Below, in pieces: positions 3,445 through 10,399 of a DNA stretch of 64,000 bases. This DNA is from Citreicoccus inhibens. Lineage in GTDB: Bacteria > Myxococcota > Myxococcia > Myxococcales > Myxococcaceae. The position numbers and the translations under genes were made by a program. Under the pieces are notes generated by a model that was given only the letters and a program-made list of their open reading frames with translations, was not told where the DNA came from and ran no database searches. Position 1 is the stretch's first letter. Each line of letters opens with the position of its first letter. The stretch covers positions 1 to 64,000 of the forward strand of contig NZ_JAHNZT010000034.1 of the NCBI RefSeq assembly GCF_019039035.1. The letters run 5' to 3'.

Positions 3445-5424
3445 TCAGCGCACCAGACGGACGGGACCGTTGAACCAGCGGTTCAGCTCCGTCACGTCAT
3501 CCAAGCGGTGCGCGGGCGGGAGGCTGGACAGGAACACGCGGCCATAACCCTTGGTCACGATGCGTCGGTCCAACATGGCGACGATGCCTCGGTCCGCTTG
3601 CGTCCGGATGAGCCGCCCGAAGCCCTGTCGCAGCGCGAGCGCCGCCTGCGGGAGTTGATACTGCTCGAAGGGCTCCTCGCCTCGCGCTTCAAGCTGCCGG
3701 ATGCGCGCGGCGACCAGCGGGTCTCCCGGCGACGCGAACGGCAACCGGTCGATGATGACCAGGCTGAGCGCATCCCCGGGCACGTCGACACCCTCCCAGA
3801 AGCTGTGCGCCGCGAACAACACGCTCGGCGTCGAGCGGAAGGACTCCAGGAGCTGGGCCTTCGGGCGCTCGCCCTGGAGCAGCGCGGGAACCATGAGCCG
3901 CCCCGCCACCAGCTCATACGCGCGCACCATGTTCCGCAGGCTGGTGAAGAGCACGAAGGCGCGCCCTCCCGTCACCTGGCACAGCTCCAGAATCTCCTCC
4001 GAGGCCGCCTCGATGAAGCCGGGCGCGCTGGGGTCCGGCAGGTGCGTGGGCAGGTACAGCGCGGACTGGCGCGGGAAGTCGAACGGGCTGGGCACGGACA
4101 GCGTGCGCACGCGAGCCACCGGCTGGCCCTCGTCGTCGTACATCCCCATGCGGCTGGCGAAGAAGTCGAAGCGGCTGTCGGCCGCGAGCGTGGCCGAGGT
4201 GAACACCACCGTGTCCACCGCGCCATACAGGCGCTCGCGAAGCTCCTTCGCCACGTCGATGGGACTGGCGCGCAGGAACACGCCCCGGCCTCGCGACTCC
4301 GCCCAATACACGTGGTCCGCGGACTCGGCCTTCTCCAAGAAGGAGAGCTGCTCGACCATCTCCTCGCCGCGCCGGTGGATGGCCGCCAGCTCCGGCTCGC
4401 GCTCCCCCGCCGCGAAGGACGCGAGCGCGGCAAGCCCCTCGCGCACCTGCTCCATCGCGCCGGACAGCTTCGCCAGGCTCTCCGGCCGCAGCGCCACGGA
4501 CGACTCCGCGCCCGACAGGCCCAGCGCGCGCGGCGCCTGATTGAAGAAGGCCTCCGCGTGCGTGCGCACCCGAGCGGCCAAGGCTGACAGCGTGGTGTGT
4601 CGCTCGTCAGTGGCGGGCAGCAACGCGGAGGCGTCGCGCGCCAGCTCCTCCAGCCGGAAGTTCGAGACGCCGTAGCCGAAGTTGCCGCTGGCCGCGTCCT
4701 CCAACGCGTGCGCCTCGTCGAAGACGACCGCGTCGTACCAGGGCAGCACGCCCTCCACGCGCTTGCCCGAGCTGCGCAGCGACAGGTCCGCGAAGAACAG
4801 GTGGTGGTTGACCACCAGCAGATCCGCGGCCTCCGCGGCCTTGCGCATGCGCGTGACGAAGCACGTCTCATACAGCGGGCAGCGCGAACCCAGACACGTC
4901 TCCGAGGTCGTGGACAGCCGCGACCACGCGCCGAACGACTCGGGCAGGTCCAGTTCGGCCCGGTCCCCCGTCTTCGTCTCGCCCACCCACGCCTTCAGCC
5001 GGGGCCACTGCCGAGCCTCCTCGCGCGAGGGGAACTGCGGGTCCTTCGCGAAGGACTCGTAGCGGTGCAGGCACAGGTAGTTGCTGCGGCCCTTGAGGTA
5101 CGCGGCCTCGAACTTGAGGCCCATCTTCTCGCGCAGCAGCGGCAGGTCCTTGAAGAAGACCTGATCCTGCAGCGTCTTCGTCGCGGTGGAGACCACCACG
5201 CGGCGCCCAGACAGCAGCGCGGGGACCAGATAGGCGAGCGTCTTGCCCGTGCCGGTGCCCGCCTCGGCCAGCAGGTAGCTGTGCTCGGAGAAGGCCCGCT
5301 CCACGGCGCGCGCCATCTGGAGCTGTTCCGGACGGTGCTCGTACGCGGGCAACGCTTCCTGTAGGGCGCCACCGGGGCCCAACAGACTGTCGACGGAGAG
5401 CGATGGAGTGGCGGAGAGGGACAT
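3445..5424 (-). CDS. dinG: DinG/YoaA-type ATP-dependent DNA helicase (XPD-like)
   Basis: A 659-residue superfamily 2 helicase that unwinds DNA 5' to 3', normally in repair and in resolving R-loops or G-quadruplexes. Motif I is AEAGTGTGKT and motif II is DEAH (VVFDEAHALED). Four cysteines between them (CLGSRCPLYETC plus an upstream LCLHRY) fit the 4Fe-4S cluster of the XPD/DinG branch. Late motifs are FWEGVDVPG and QGFGRLIR. The start at 5424 (MSLSATPSLS) places the first helicase motif at the usual distance; the frame is open for another 178 codons upstream, but that part is compositionally biased and looks non-coding. The fit to the family is very good. Confidence 0.9.
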   Translation of the reverse strand: MSLSATPSLSVDSLLGPGGALQEALPAYEHRPEQLQMARAVERAFSEHSYLLAEAGTGTGKTLAYLVPALLSGRRVVVSTATKTLQDQVFFKDLPLLREKMGLKFEAAYLKGRSNYLCLHRYESFAKDPQFPSREEARQWPRLKAWVGETKTGDRAELDLPESFGAWSRLSTTSETCLGSRCPLYETCFVTRMRKAAEAADLLVVNHHLFFADLSLRSSGKRVEGVLPWYDAVVFDEAHALEDAASGNFGYGVSNFRLEELARDASALLPATDERHTTLSALAARVRTHAEAFFNQAPRALGLSGAESSVALRPESLAKLSGAMEQVREGLAALASFAAGEREPELAAIHRRGEEMVEQLSFLEKAESADHVYWAESRGRGVFLRASPIDVAKELRERLYGAVDTVVFTSATLAADSRFDFFASRMGMYDDEGQPVARVRTLSVPSPFDFPRQSALYLPTHLPDPSAPGFIEAASEEILELCQVTGGRAFVLFTSLRNMVRAYELVAGRLMVPALLQGERPKAQLLESFRSTPSVLFAAHSFWEGVDVPGDALSLVIIDRLPFASPGDPLVAARIRQLEARGEEPFEQYQLPQAALALRQGFGRLIRTQADRGIVAMLDRRIVTKGYGRVFLSSLPPAHRLDDVTELNRWFNGPVRLVR

Positions 5425-5561: not shown

Positions 5562-6299
5562 CTACGGTCCGCCGAGGAACGCACCGGCAGCGAAGTGGAT
5601 GGCCATCATCGTGAGCACCAGCGCCACCACCAGGGTGATGCCCATCATCACCGCCTTCGCGCGACGCGCGGCCAGCGGCACCTCCGCGTGCGTCATCTCC
5701 GCGGAGGAAGCGGTGGCGGCGCGACGCACGACCTCCTCTCGCCCGCGCCGCGCCTGCGCATCCTCGGGAGCCTGCGCCAGCTGAAGGCGATACAGCCGCC
5801 CCGCCATGGCCAGCTCGCCTCGCGCCAGGGCCTGCGCCAGCCATTGCTCGTGCGCGTCCCAGTCCGCCCATCGCTCGCGCAGCGCCCGCCAGCCCTGGGC
5901 CAGCACCTCCGAGGGCCGATGCTCCTCCGCCAGGAAGTTGGCGTAGACGAGTCCGCACGCCGCGCAGGACTCACGGTCCTCGCGCCGAGGGGACACGCAC
6001 TTGGGACAGAAGCCCGGCGGAGCACTGAAGTCATCGCGCACCGGGGCGCCGCCCGTCGCGACAGCGGTCGCGTCCTCCGTGCGCACCACGCGCAGCGCGG
6101 GCACGCTCGGGCGAACTGACGGCTCGGCGGGCGTGGGCGTGGCCACCGCGGCCACGGCCTCGGGCTGAGCGGCGGCCACCGTCAGCGCGGCGCGGCTCTC
6201 CGCTCCGCAGCGACCGCACGCGACGACGAGCGCGCCTGCTTCGACGCGGAAGACTTCCAATGGGACCAACCGCTCACAGGCCTCGCACTGGAACTTCAT
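5562..6299 (-). CDS. Zinc-ribbon protein with C-terminal membrane anchor
   Basis: A 245-residue protein starting MKFQCEACERLVP. The N-terminus has a CxxC...CxxC zinc ribbon (CEAC, CGRC) of the zinc-ribbon type seen at the start of many myxobacterial membrane-associated proteins. A Pro/Ala linker follows, then a second ribbon (CPKC, CAAC at about residues 113-135), a helical segment, and one transmembrane helix near the C-terminus (MMGITLVVALVLTMMAI). The ATG overlaps the TGA of the upstream M50 protease gene (ATGA at 6296-6299), so the two are translationally coupled. One inference is that this membrane-tethered protein is a partner or substrate of that protease; nothing in the sequence proves it. 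Confidence 0.8.
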   Translation of the reverse strand: MKFQCEACERLVPLEVFRVEAGALVVACGRCGAESRAALTVAAAQPEAVAAVATPTPAEPSVRPSVPALRVVRTEDATAVATGGAPVRDDFSAPPGFCPKCVSPRREDRESCAACGLVYANFLAEEHRPSEVLAQGWRALRERWADWDAHEQWLAQALARGELAMAGRLYRLQLAQAPEDAQARRGREEVVRRAATASSAEMTHAEVPLAARRAKAVMMGITLVVALVLTMMAIHFAAGAFLGGP

Positions 6300-7294
6300 G
6301 ACATCACCGTCCGCAAGGGAATGGGCATGGCACACCCGATGAGCGCCAGCAGGCAGATGGCGCATATCCATTGACGACCTCGGCTCAATGGCTCGCGCGG
6401 TTCAATGACTTCCGGATGGCCGAACCCCACCATCTTGCTCGTCACCACCAACCACAGCCCCCAGGACGCGGTGGCGAACACCGTGAGGAACAACAGCAAC
6501 AGGGCCACGCCCTGCCCCACCCGACGCGCGCGAGAACCCAGCACCGCGAAAGACAGATGTCCGCCGTCGAGCTGTCCCACTGGCATGAGATTGAGCAGCG
6601 TGACCAGCAATCCAAACCATCCCGCGATGACCACGGGATGCACGGCCACATCCTTGCCCTCCGGCACCGGCCCCACCGCCAGGCGCGTGAGCCCCTTCAT
6701 GAGCAAGCTGTCACCGAACAACGTCTGAACCTGTCGCAGCGGCGCCTCGGGCGGCGGCGGCGCGTGCGTCAGCTTCGCGACGAGCCAATGGAACAACTCC
6801 GTTCCCAGCACCCACAGCGACGACTCTCCGGGGAAGGGCGACGCCACCGACGGCGCATCCACCACCGCCGAGTGCCGCAGCCCCCAGTAGAGGATGGGCA
6901 GCGCCACCACCAGCCCCGCGAGCGGCCCCGCCGCGCCAATGTCCACCAAGGCATTGCGCGAGGGAATGCGGCTGCGGATCCGGATGACCGCGCCCAGCGT
7001 GCCCAGACTGCCCGGCACCGGCAGCGGGATGAAGTACGGCAACGACGTGTCCACGCCGTGGATCCGCGCCAGCACGTAGTGCCCCATCTCGTGCGAGCCG
7101 AGGATGGCCAACAGCGACAGGCTGAAGGCCAGCGCTTGCGCGCCATCCTCGGGACGCAGGCCCGCTTCGGTGAACGGAAACGAGCCCGTGAAGAGCACCA
7201 GATACGCGAGGAACGTGGTGCCCACCGTCAGCACGAACAACAAGACGTGCAGCCAGAGCCGGGCATAGGGACGGGCAACGGAGACGGAGTCCAT
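6296..7294 (-). CDS. Site-2-protease-type M50 zinc metallopeptidase
   Basis: A 332-residue polytopic intramembrane protease. The zinc motif HEMGH lies in the third hydrophobic segment, and the second catalytic segment reads NLMPVGQLDGGH, the NPDG/LDG motif of M50 peptidases. This arrangement matches the archaeal/plant EGY-like S2P branch without PDZ. Such enzymes cut transmembrane helices of regulators inside the membrane. The start at 7294 (MDSVSVARPY) precedes the first transmembrane helix; the longer frame to 7492 has no membrane or signal character. It is translationally coupled to the downstream zinc-ribbon gene. Confidence 0.88.
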   Translation of the reverse strand: MDSVSVARPYARLWLHVLLFVLTVGTTFLAYLVLFTGSFPFTEAGLRPEDGAQALAFSLSLLAILGSHEMGHYVLARIHGVDTSLPYFIPLPVPGSLGTLGAVIRIRSRIPSRNALVDIGAAGPLAGLVVALPILYWGLRHSAVVDAPSVASPFPGESSLWVLGTELFHWLVAKLTHAPPPPEAPLRQVQTLFGDSLLMKGLTRLAVGPVPEGKDVAVHPVVIAGWFGLLVTLLNLMPVGQLDGGHLSFAVLGSRARRVGQGVALLLLFLTVFATASWGLWLVVTSKMVGFGHPEVIEPREPLSRGRQWICAICLLALIGCAMPIPLRTVMS

Positions 7295-7520: not shown

Positions 7521-7868
7521 ATGAAGAAGCTCATCCTGTCCGCCGTTCTCGCGAGCAGCCTGGTGGGTTGCACCAGCGTCGAGTCCGCCGTTGTCTCCGG
7601 CAGCGAGATCGCCGCCAATGGCGAGGCCGTGGCTGTCGTTCAGGCCAACGCGCTGGGTCTGACGGCCATCTTCCACATCATCGACATCGTGCAGAGCGAT
7701 CTCGACACCGTGGTGAACAAGCTCCTCATCACCGAGGCCAAGGCCATGGGCGCCTCCAAGGTTGACCTGAAGGGCGCCTCCACCACGCCCCGTCACGGCA
7801 TCTACGCCCTGTTCGGGACCATCATCGGCGTGACCAGCTCCTCCGCCACGGGCGTCGCCGTCAAGTAG
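7521..7868 (+). CDS. Small lipoprotein of unknown function
   Basis: A 115-residue protein with an n-region MKK, a hydrophobic core and lipobox SLVGC, so it should be exported and lipid-modified at Cys17. The mature part is Ala/Val/Ser-rich, with a predicted alpha/beta pattern and a C-terminus rich in Ser and Gly. No family is recognised. The ribosome site GGGAGCG sits 11 bases before the ATG. A rho-independent terminator follows at once, so it is probably expressed alone, possibly at a high level. Confidence 0.78.
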   Translation: MKKLILSAVLASSLVGCTSVESAVVSGSEIAANGEAVAVVQANALGLTAIFHIIDIVQSDLDTVVNKLLITEAKAMGASKVDLKGASTTPRHGIYALFGTIIGVTSSSATGVAVK

Positions 7869-7943: not shown

Positions 7944-8744
7944 ATGCGTCTTCTTCTCCTGCTGTCGTGTGTCGCACTCGTCGCCTGTCGCTCCCGCTCC
8001 GCCACGGAGGAGCCCGGCGCGCTGCTGTCGCAAGCGCGTCAGCGTCTGGCCGAGCGCGACGCGAAGCTCGCCCACTACCGACTGGAGGGCACGCAGCGAG
8101 AGGGAGACAGCGCGCAGGCGTCCTTCACCTTCACCTATCGCGCGCCCCAGCGAATGCTGGGCACGGTGACGGCGCCGATGTCTCGCACGGTGGCCTGGGA
8201 TGGCACGCACCTGTTCGAGAAGCTCGATGAGCCCAAGCAGTTCACCACCTTCGCCAATGAGCTGCCTCCCGAGAAGCTGTCGGGATTTCTCACCGAGGTG
8301 TTCGCGCCCTTCGTGCCCGAGGGCTTCCGCGCGCCGCTGCTGCTGCGCAGCGTGACCGCGAAGCGCGTGACGCACGCGCGCGCCAGGGACGCCGTGGAGC
8401 TGTCCATGAAGCTGGAGGGCGCCGAGGCCGAGGGCCTGGAAGTGGCCTACGTGCTGCGTTGGCCCACGCTGGACTTCCTCGCCAAGCGCACGCACGCGCC
8501 CGACGGTGGCACGTCCGAGGTGCGCGTGGAGGACGAGCACTGCGATGCGGCGCTCCAGCTCTGCGTGCCGCGTCGGCTGACCCGTTGGGTGGATGGCAAG
8601 CAGGTAGGAGAGACCTCGCTCTCCCGAGTGGACCTCCAGGCCGCCCTGCCCAATGACACGTTCACCCTGGTGGCGCCGGCGGGCTACACCGCGCAGAGCC
8701 GCACGCTCGTGGAGAGTGGGGCGGCCAGCTCGGACGGCGGTTGA
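7944..8744 (+). CDS. Outer-membrane lipoprotein with LolA/LppX-like fold (predicted)
   Basis: A 266-residue lipoprotein. MRLLLLLSC leads into lipobox VALVAC, with lipidation at Cys15. The mature part begins with a helix (LLSQARQRLAERDAKL), then strands of the type YRAPQRMLGTV and VAWDGTHLFEKLD, the pattern of LolA/LolB/LppX half-barrels that bind lipid or lipoprotein acyl chains. The last third has a short Cys pair (CDAALQLC). The start at 7944 is chosen because the signal peptide begins there. No good ribosome site is visible, since the preceding terminator occupies that space. The fold assignment is inferred from pattern only. Confidence 0.75.
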   Translation: MRLLLLLSCVALVACRSRSATEEPGALLSQARQRLAERDAKLAHYRLEGTQREGDSAQASFTFTYRAPQRMLGTVTAPMSRTVAWDGTHLFEKLDEPKQFTTFANELPPEKLSGFLTEVFAPFVPEGFRAPLLLRSVTAKRVTHARARDAVELSMKLEGAEAEGLEVAYVLRWPTLDFLAKRTHAPDGGTSEVRVEDEHCDAALQLCVPRRLTRWVDGKQVGETSLSRVDLQAALPNDTFTLVAPAGYTAQSRTLVESGAASSDGG

Positions 8745-9709: not shown

Positions 9710-10207
9710 CTATCTGCGCGAACCGCGCCGCTTCGTCATGCTTCGGCCCCGCGATGCGGTGGCGCGCCTGGCGCCGCGACCGGAGACCCGTGAGCGCCGA
9801 GACGTCACGCGCTTGCCCGCGGTTCCCGCGCGCGCCGTGGACTTGCGCCCCATTGTGCGCGTGGCCCGCCGAGGACTGGCCCGCGTGGAGCGACGCGCCG
9901 TCGTCCGCTTGCGCGCCGCGGTCGCCTTGCGCGCCGTGCGCTTGCGCGCGGCCGCCACGGACCGCCTGCGGCCCGACACCCGACCCGCCTTGCGCGCGTT
10001 CTTCCGCGCGGCGGGACGCCGACGCGCCACCTTCGCCCTGCTTCCGGATCCACCCTTCATACCGCCCCCCGTGAGCTTGTTGACGGTGGCCCAGGCCCGC
10101 GCCACGGACGTGCTCTCGTCAACTCCTCGCTGCTCGTAACCCTGCTCGATGTCCCGAGCCATTCGCTGCTGCCTGTTCGAGTACTTCGCCTTGCTCCCTC
10201 TCGCCAT
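9710..10207 (-). CDS. Histone-H1-like basic protein with N-terminal 'plasmid stabilization'-type domain
   Basis: A 165-residue protein. Residues 1-52 (MARGSKAKYSNRQQRMARDI, then EQGYEQRGV, ARAWATVNKLTGGG) match the small domain often annotated as plasmid stabilization protein. The remainder is a Lys/Arg/Ala/Ser/Thr tail with repeated AARKRT-type segments, like bacterial histone-H1-like proteins, and should bind DNA non-specifically. The start at 10207 is fixed by GGCAGGAGG six bases upstream. The upstream open frame to 10381 is not needed. It is divergent from the lipid-kinase gene. A chromosomal nucleoid role is more likely than plasmid maintenance. Confidence 0.8.
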   Translation of the reverse strand: MARGSKAKYSNRQQRMARDIEQGYEQRGVDESTSVARAWATVNKLTGGGMKGGSGSRAKVARRRPAARKNARKAGRVSGRRRSVAAARKRTARKATAARKRTTARRSTRASPRRATRTMGRKSTARAGTAGKRVTSRRSRVSGRGARRATASRGRSMTKRRGSRR

Positions 10208-10399
10208 CCCCACCTCCTGCCCATGCACCCCGCCGGTCGGTATGGAACCAGCGTCGCTTGCAAGGTGTTCAGCCCTCCGCCTCGGCGGAAGTGCGCATGT
10301 CACTTCCTCTGTCCACATGGGAACGGCCGCCCCCACACCTGGCCCTCGCGCGCGTGCGTGCACACCCTGTGGGCACGACACCCGTGAGGAGGAGCCACC

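Follow-up and report, generated by a model that had tools for sequence, protein, structure and literature searches.

A conserved gene pair in Myxococcota encoding a predicted site-2 protease and a zinc-ribbon tail-anchored protein, with a YoaA-type helicase as a recurrent neighbor

Introduction

To our knowledge, few bacterial site-2 proteases (S2Ps) have a known native partner. The proteins that S2Ps cut in general span the membrane once, in type II orientation (PMC10470546, in part), and SpoIVFB with BofA/SpoIVFA provides a model in which an S2P has partner proteins dedicated to it (PMC9042235, in part). The open-access literature, as represented by titles and the starts of abstracts, yielded nothing on a pair formed by an S2P and a zinc-ribbon protein, and the available part of an S2P review (PMC10202637) mentions neither "Myxococc" nor "zinc finger."

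Here, we describe such a pair in the window, that is, the whole 64,000-nucleotide stretch of Citreicoccus inhibens DNA that was analyzed. With the RseP-RseA and RseP-FecR systems, the locus shares an M50 protease and a single-span partner, presumed to be type II (PMC10470546, in part). It differs from them in that no PDZ domain was matched in its S2P, and in that the outer tail of the zinc-ribbon protein (hereafter, the partner) would be about nine residues long. Neither a site-1 protease nor a sigma factor was found among the six neighboring products scanned.

The partner resembles AgmX of Myxococcus xanthus, which we take to be GltJ and whose ribbon binds the Ras-like GTPase MglA. When the partner profile was compared with the PDB, the AgmX/GltJ ribbon 7zok was the top match (E 0.0028, residues 2–44), followed by 2nb9 (E 0.081), whose record is titled "Uncharacterized protein" and which is presumably the ZitP ribbon. 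AgmX/GltJ differs in being a gliding-motility protein, and the 7zok match spans the first ribbon alone.

In ZitP of Caulobacter, the zinc ligands are C5, C8, C28, and C31, and the ribbon binds the polar protein PopZ (PMC5182065, in part). The cysteines of the partner's first ribbon occupy identical positions, and both proteins would be bitopic, with a cytosolic ribbon and a single membrane helix. However, DUF3426 follows the helix of ZitP, whereas just 11 residues follow the helix core of the window partner, and ZitP W35, required for PopZ binding in vitro, is a serine in the partner. The available part of the ZitP paper (PMC5182065) shows no second ribbon or TPR-like domain in the domain scheme of ZitP and does not mention an S2P neighbor.

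The S2P and partner genes of the window

The features of the locus are listed below.

6296..7294, minus strand: predicted site-2 protease, M50 family intramembrane metalloprotease, 332 aa (PF02163, E 2e-22, and invariant motif residues)
7079..7093, minus strand: HEMGH zinc-binding/catalytic motif, S2P residues 68–72 (sequence position and alignment)
6557..6571, minus strand: LDGGH, S2P residues 242–246, with D243 (invariant in 18/18)
6296..6299, minus strand: ATGA in which the S2P stop codon and the partner start codon overlap (sequence; 4-nt overlap in 36/49 distinct pairs)
5562..6299, minus strand: zinc-ribbon tail-anchored protein, 245 aa (ORF, homolog searches, and cysteine alignment)
6192..6299, minus strand: first zinc ribbon (C5, C8, C28, C31), AgmX/ZitP-like (invariant cysteines; PDB profile matches)
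5934..6017, minus strand: second zinc ribbon (C98, C101, C112, C115; cysteines invariant in 26 rows)
5688..5909, minus strand: predicted four-helix TPR-like domain, residues 131–204 (AlphaFold model; weak fold matches; kept in family f5)
5598..5666, minus strand: C-terminal membrane helix, about residues 212–234 (hydropathy)
3445..5424, minus strand: YoaA-type DinG/XPD-like helicase, the third gene of the neighborhood (NF053712, E 4.7e-220)

The S2P gene runs from an ATG at 7294 to a TGA stop at 6298–6296, and its product scored well above the threshold for Pfam Peptidase_M50 (80.1 bits; cut-off, 27.2). Both the HExxH motif (HEMGH) and the NxxPxxxxDG(x) motif (NLMPVGQLDGG) are present; the second motif beside HEMGH 68–72 is NLMPVGQLDGGH, and LNLMPVGQLDGGH ends at residue 246. 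In the 18 aligned sequences, the window's own counted, H68, E69, H72, N235, P238, and D243 are invariant, and the DGG is a DAG in two. D243 is presumably the third zinc ligand, a role taken from the family. The protein is multi-pass, with five separate hydrophobic stretches above the cut-off (cores 17–35, 116–134 overlapping 127–145, 216–234, 266–284, and 309–327); the HExxH segment itself falls below it. The match of the S2P profile to SpoIVFB was weak (E 0.19). With its motifs intact, the protein is predicted from its sequence to carry out membrane proteolysis.

The partner gene begins with an ATG at 6299–6297, and its stop ends at 5562. The ATGA overlap that the earlier note had reported thus lies exactly at 6296–6299. 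The note's description of the product as two zinc ribbons and a single C-terminal membrane helix was likewise borne out: all eight ribbon cysteines are invariant in 26 aligned partner sequences (the window's own counted), the N-terminal ribbon following the pattern C-x2-C-x19-C-x2-C, and the only hydrophobic segment lies near the C-terminus. In the window protein, the ribbons score below the Pfam cut-offs (14.6 against 30.3 bits for Zn_ribbon_4, and 16.9 against 27.3), and Zn_ribbon_5 was not listed in the scan; the ribbon calls therefore rest on the cysteine pattern and weak profile matches. The linker between the two ribbons differs widely in length among homologs.

Beyond the 19-residue core of the membrane helix, 47 of the 48 partner homologs have ≤ 12 residues (61 in the other one). 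The charge is more positive before the helix in 30 of these 48 sequences, equal in 10, and reversed in 8, a bias that weakly backs an N-in orientation. The earlier note had seen in the partner the shape of a regulated-proteolysis substrate. The layout does fit this description, but the orientation is only weakly backed by these charges, and, as described below, the pair is not obligate. No conserved helix-breaking residue stood out in the membrane helix when the homologs were aligned, and no conserved polar or docking residues were found there. Column entropy was 1.33 bits for the second ribbon, 1.37 for the helical core, 1.50 for the first ribbon, and 2.29 for the membrane helix. The membrane helix is thus the least conserved part (2.29 against 1.37 bits), as expected of an anchor or a loosely recognized substrate rather than of a specific docking helix.

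Distribution of the gene pair in Myxococcota

Among 79 related genomes, homologs of the partner were found in 55 and of the S2P in 66. A profile search of 195 Myxococcota genomes matched the partner in 156 (ribbon-only and weak matches included), the S2P in 148, and the helicase, at E ≤ 1e-60, in 171. We then tallied best hits, with the split pieces of one gene merged and ribbon-only matches (e.g., G058, G062, and G098) excluded. The earlier note had named absence of the pair elsewhere as one of two observations that would count against its reading; the pair proved to be widespread, and 117 of the 195 genomes hold both genes among the matches listed. In 101 of these 117, again among the matches listed, the S2P gene comes first and adjoins the partner gene on the same strand; one of the 101, G019, is counted on a gene split across contigs. 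These tallies are not counts of independent events because close relatives weigh heavily in them.

Adjacent pairs occur in eight families among the matches listed: 74 of 89 genomes in f1, the family of the window, 14 in f5, 8 in f11, and one each in f2, f6, f13, f14, and f16. Within f1, the pair is adjacent in 18 of the 24 genera tallied (among the matches listed). To examine the junction, we used those adjacent pairs of the fetched loci whose first 60 partner residues differ. A 4-nt overlap (ATGA or GTGA) is present in 36 of these 49 pairs, a raw count that includes the f2 pair and five f11 pairs; the junctions of the remaining 13 vary between an overlap of 11 nt and a gap of 121 nt. The adjacency in 101/117 genomes (among the matches listed) and the raw count of 36/49 overlaps, which extend to distant families, indicate more than a chance pairing, and we conclude that the S2P/partner gene pair is real and old. 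No natural fusion of the two proteins was present in the tables of the fetched loci.

The two genes are nevertheless not an obligate pair: in the best-hit tally, and among the matches listed, 28 genomes have the S2P without the partner and 10 the partner without the S2P. A weak match to the partner profile (best E from 9e-4 to 1e-9) exists in 14 of the 28; three of these matches are ribbon-only, and eleven lie outside the matches listed. Where the S2P neighborhood of such weak-match genomes was read, no partner was found next to the S2P. In another 16 of the 117 genomes with both genes, the two lie apart (among the matches listed); one of these, G118, is undecidable, as contig ends cut its locus.

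A YoaA-type helicase as the third recurrent neighbor

The third gene of the neighborhood, absent from the earlier note, begins 137 nt past the partner gene and adjoins the S2P gene, the partner gene, or both in many families. Its product has cysteines at 118, 177, 182, and 188, which we take to match the Fe-S cysteines of XPD/DinG helicases. It scored 732.5 bits against the NCBIfam YoaA equivalog NF053712 (cut-off 680), and in this respect it is like YoaA of Escherichia coli. That protein is known together with HolC/chi (PMC8378479, in part), whereas the window helicase has an S2P and a zinc-ribbon protein as its linked neighbors.

The three genes occur in several arrangements. The full order of S2P, partner, and helicase is also present in two Myxococcus records other than M. 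xanthus (L140 and L141). In all 10 S2P-bearing genomes of f7 (six read, four by position), the helicase comes next after the S2P and no partner was matched in between, and the same direct order is found in f15, f28, f31, part of f5, and one f6 genome. The partner is followed by the helicase, with the S2P elsewhere or not found, in g2, g5, g6, g14, g18, and f3; in g5, this applies to four of the six partner-bearing genomes (G005, G026, G035, and G162, not G160 or G161). In the g17 loci read, neither the S2P nor the helicase lies alongside the partner. The S2P-partner pair without the helicase behind it was seen in f11, f13, f14, and f16, in 10 of 11 loci; the remaining locus, L109, ends too early. 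Every two-gene combination was therefore seen without the third gene, so that each pairing survives the loss of the third.

Such independence would be expected if the three genes merely shared an old transcription unit and their products made no contact, the partner acting with the helicase or alone. The presence of ribbon-family proteins next to a Peripla_BP_6 protein, without an S2P, in 6 of 7 loci of f23–f25 points the same way. However, the S2P and the ribbon protein remain adjacent where the helicase has moved away (e.g., G044, G015, and f11), and the 4-nt overlap is retained between distant families. We regard conserved synteny alone as an unlikely explanation and rank it third of the three considered here.

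Loss of the zinc ribbons and retention of the helical domain

The genomes of f5, which we take to be Anaeromyxobacter-like, are informative about the partner. In all 14 that have a family gene between the S2P and the helicase, the encoded protein lacks zinc ribbons: there is no CxxC anywhere in the open frame, and the helical domain and the membrane helix are retained. In the four other S2P-bearing f5 genomes, no family gene was matched at this position. The second ribbon is missing in the single pairs of f6, f13, f14, and f16.

The earlier note had proposed that cleavage would release a soluble zinc-ribbon domain. This is plausible for the window protein, but the release of zinc ribbons is not the conserved core of the system, since both ribbons are gone in 14/14 f5 genes beside an S2P, and we accordingly lowered it as a candidate core function. 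Taken together, the variation in linker length, the ribbon losses, and the column entropies show that the anchored helical domain is the constant element beside the S2P and that the ribbons can be lost. By sequence comparison, the four-helix domain is the most widely kept part of the partner.

The AlphaFold model of the partner, built from 3 sequences (mean pLDDT 60, pTM 0.39), places four helices at 131–204, with block-mean pLDDT values of 79–96 across residues 131–190, followed by 66 and 41. Foldseek gave no match to the helical domain at E ≤ 0.001; the rows at the best E of 0.74 or worse include several TPR chains and Fis1. In VIA, the top row was one prenyltransferase alpha chain (Z 8.7), all other rows were ≤ 7.0, and TPR chains scored near 4–5, values that, according to the tool's own note, can reflect merely a common helical arrangement. 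The domain may thus be described as TPR-like on weak and partly TPR-like fold matches. No named domain was found for the helical part: a Pfam scan of three f5 tail proteins gave no match, and in a scan of A1 (26 members) the hits were limited to models for zinc or metal binding and a few uncharacterized ones.

That the helical domain and its membrane helix stay beside the S2P in 14/14 f5 genomes with a family gene there would also be expected if the partner were a subunit of the S2P, with a role in regulation or substrate recruitment, rather than its substrate. The helical domain would then bind the S2P or its clients, and the ribbons would be optional client-binding modules, in keeping with the widely differing inter-ribbon linkers; dedicated inhibitory partners are known for one S2P (PMC9042235, in part). 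On the other hand, the membrane helix lacks conserved polar or docking residues, and, among the matches listed, 28 genomes have the S2P but no partner and 16 have the two genes unlinked. A subunit role is possible but on the doubtful side; it ranks second, as a close rival of cleavage by the S2P.

Proposed cleavage of the partner as the best explanation

The reading that we place first is that the S2P cuts the tail anchor of the partner and thereby frees or removes a zinc-ribbon/TPR-like adaptor, although we hold it tentatively and at somewhat less than an even chance. The S2P and the partner would form a co-translated membrane module. The partner would be a cytosolic adaptor composed of an AgmX/ZitP-type ribbon, a second ribbon, a small TPR-like domain, and one C-terminal helix in the inner membrane. 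It would bind other proteins, not DNA, through its ribbons and helical domain. Since the partner would expose only about nine residues on the outside, its membrane helix may be cleaved with no need for an earlier site-1 cut.

We rank cleavage first because the partner fits S2P substrates in having one C-terminal helix, a short tail, and a charge bias that weakly backs N-in. The invariance of H68, E69, H72, and D243 in 18/18 S2P sequences, the adjacency of the genes, their overlap, the short tail after the helix, and the low conservation of the helix are also in favor of it. So is the likeness of the first ribbon to those of AgmX and ZitP, its nearest solved structures, the ZitP ribbon being a PopZ binder. 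Against it stands the separation of the partner from the S2P in 16/117 genomes (among the matches listed), several of which have the helicase next to the partner instead. The weakly backed orientation and the lack of a conserved helix-breaking residue that stands out in the membrane helix also count against it. Furthermore, the S2P must have other work, since 28 genomes among the matches listed, including the 10 of f7, retain it in the partner's absence.

Whichever role applies, the partner is a candidate S2P partner encoded next door and conserved across much of the phylum, and it is approachable in Myxococcus, a genus in which genes are routinely deleted. As a substrate, it would exemplify intramembrane proteolysis that may do without a site-1 cut and without an anti-sigma factor; as a subunit, it would add a new type of regulator to those of S2Ps. 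The recurrence of the YoaA-type helicase suggests a possible and unanticipated connection of membrane proteolysis with DNA repair. A bolder proposal, which we consider improbable, is a stress switch in Myxococcota that runs from membrane to chromosome: once freed by the S2P, the adaptor would recruit or control either the helicase encoded with it or, as AgmX does, a polarity factor of the Ras-like kind. If so, an intramembrane cut would alter DNA repair or cell polarity without a sigma factor.

Distant relatives and other genes of the window

In Nitrospirota, a zinc ribbon like the second ribbon of the partner lies directly behind the S2P on the same strand in four loci (L170, L183, L197, and L207), and a zinc-ribbon protein lies about 2 kb from the S2P in two others (L171 and L185). 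These proteins were not counted as members of the partner family because they are fused to a multi-pass HEAGH domain and the ribbon alone matches.

Distant members of the zinc-ribbon family were also found in seven loci in which no S2P was matched nearby (L113, L117, L119, L123, L125, L126, and L127). The neighboring proteins there are stop-to-stop open frames, not called genes. A Peripla_BP_6 open frame lies ahead of the zinc-ribbon member in six of the seven (L113 gave no match), and FliH-like proteins follow it in L119 and L126.

Elsewhere in the window, two genes on the plus strand are divergent from the S2P gene (7521–7868 and 7944–8744); their products are lipoprotein-like by eye, and Pfam gave nothing above the cut-off for either. 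An ORF at 9710–10381 on the minus strand has a long Arg/Lys/Ala-rich C-terminal half and is histone-H1-like by eye. Two long ORFs on the plus strand, at 129–1400 and 1348–2508, overlap in tandem and are PilT-type twitching ATPase-like by eye.
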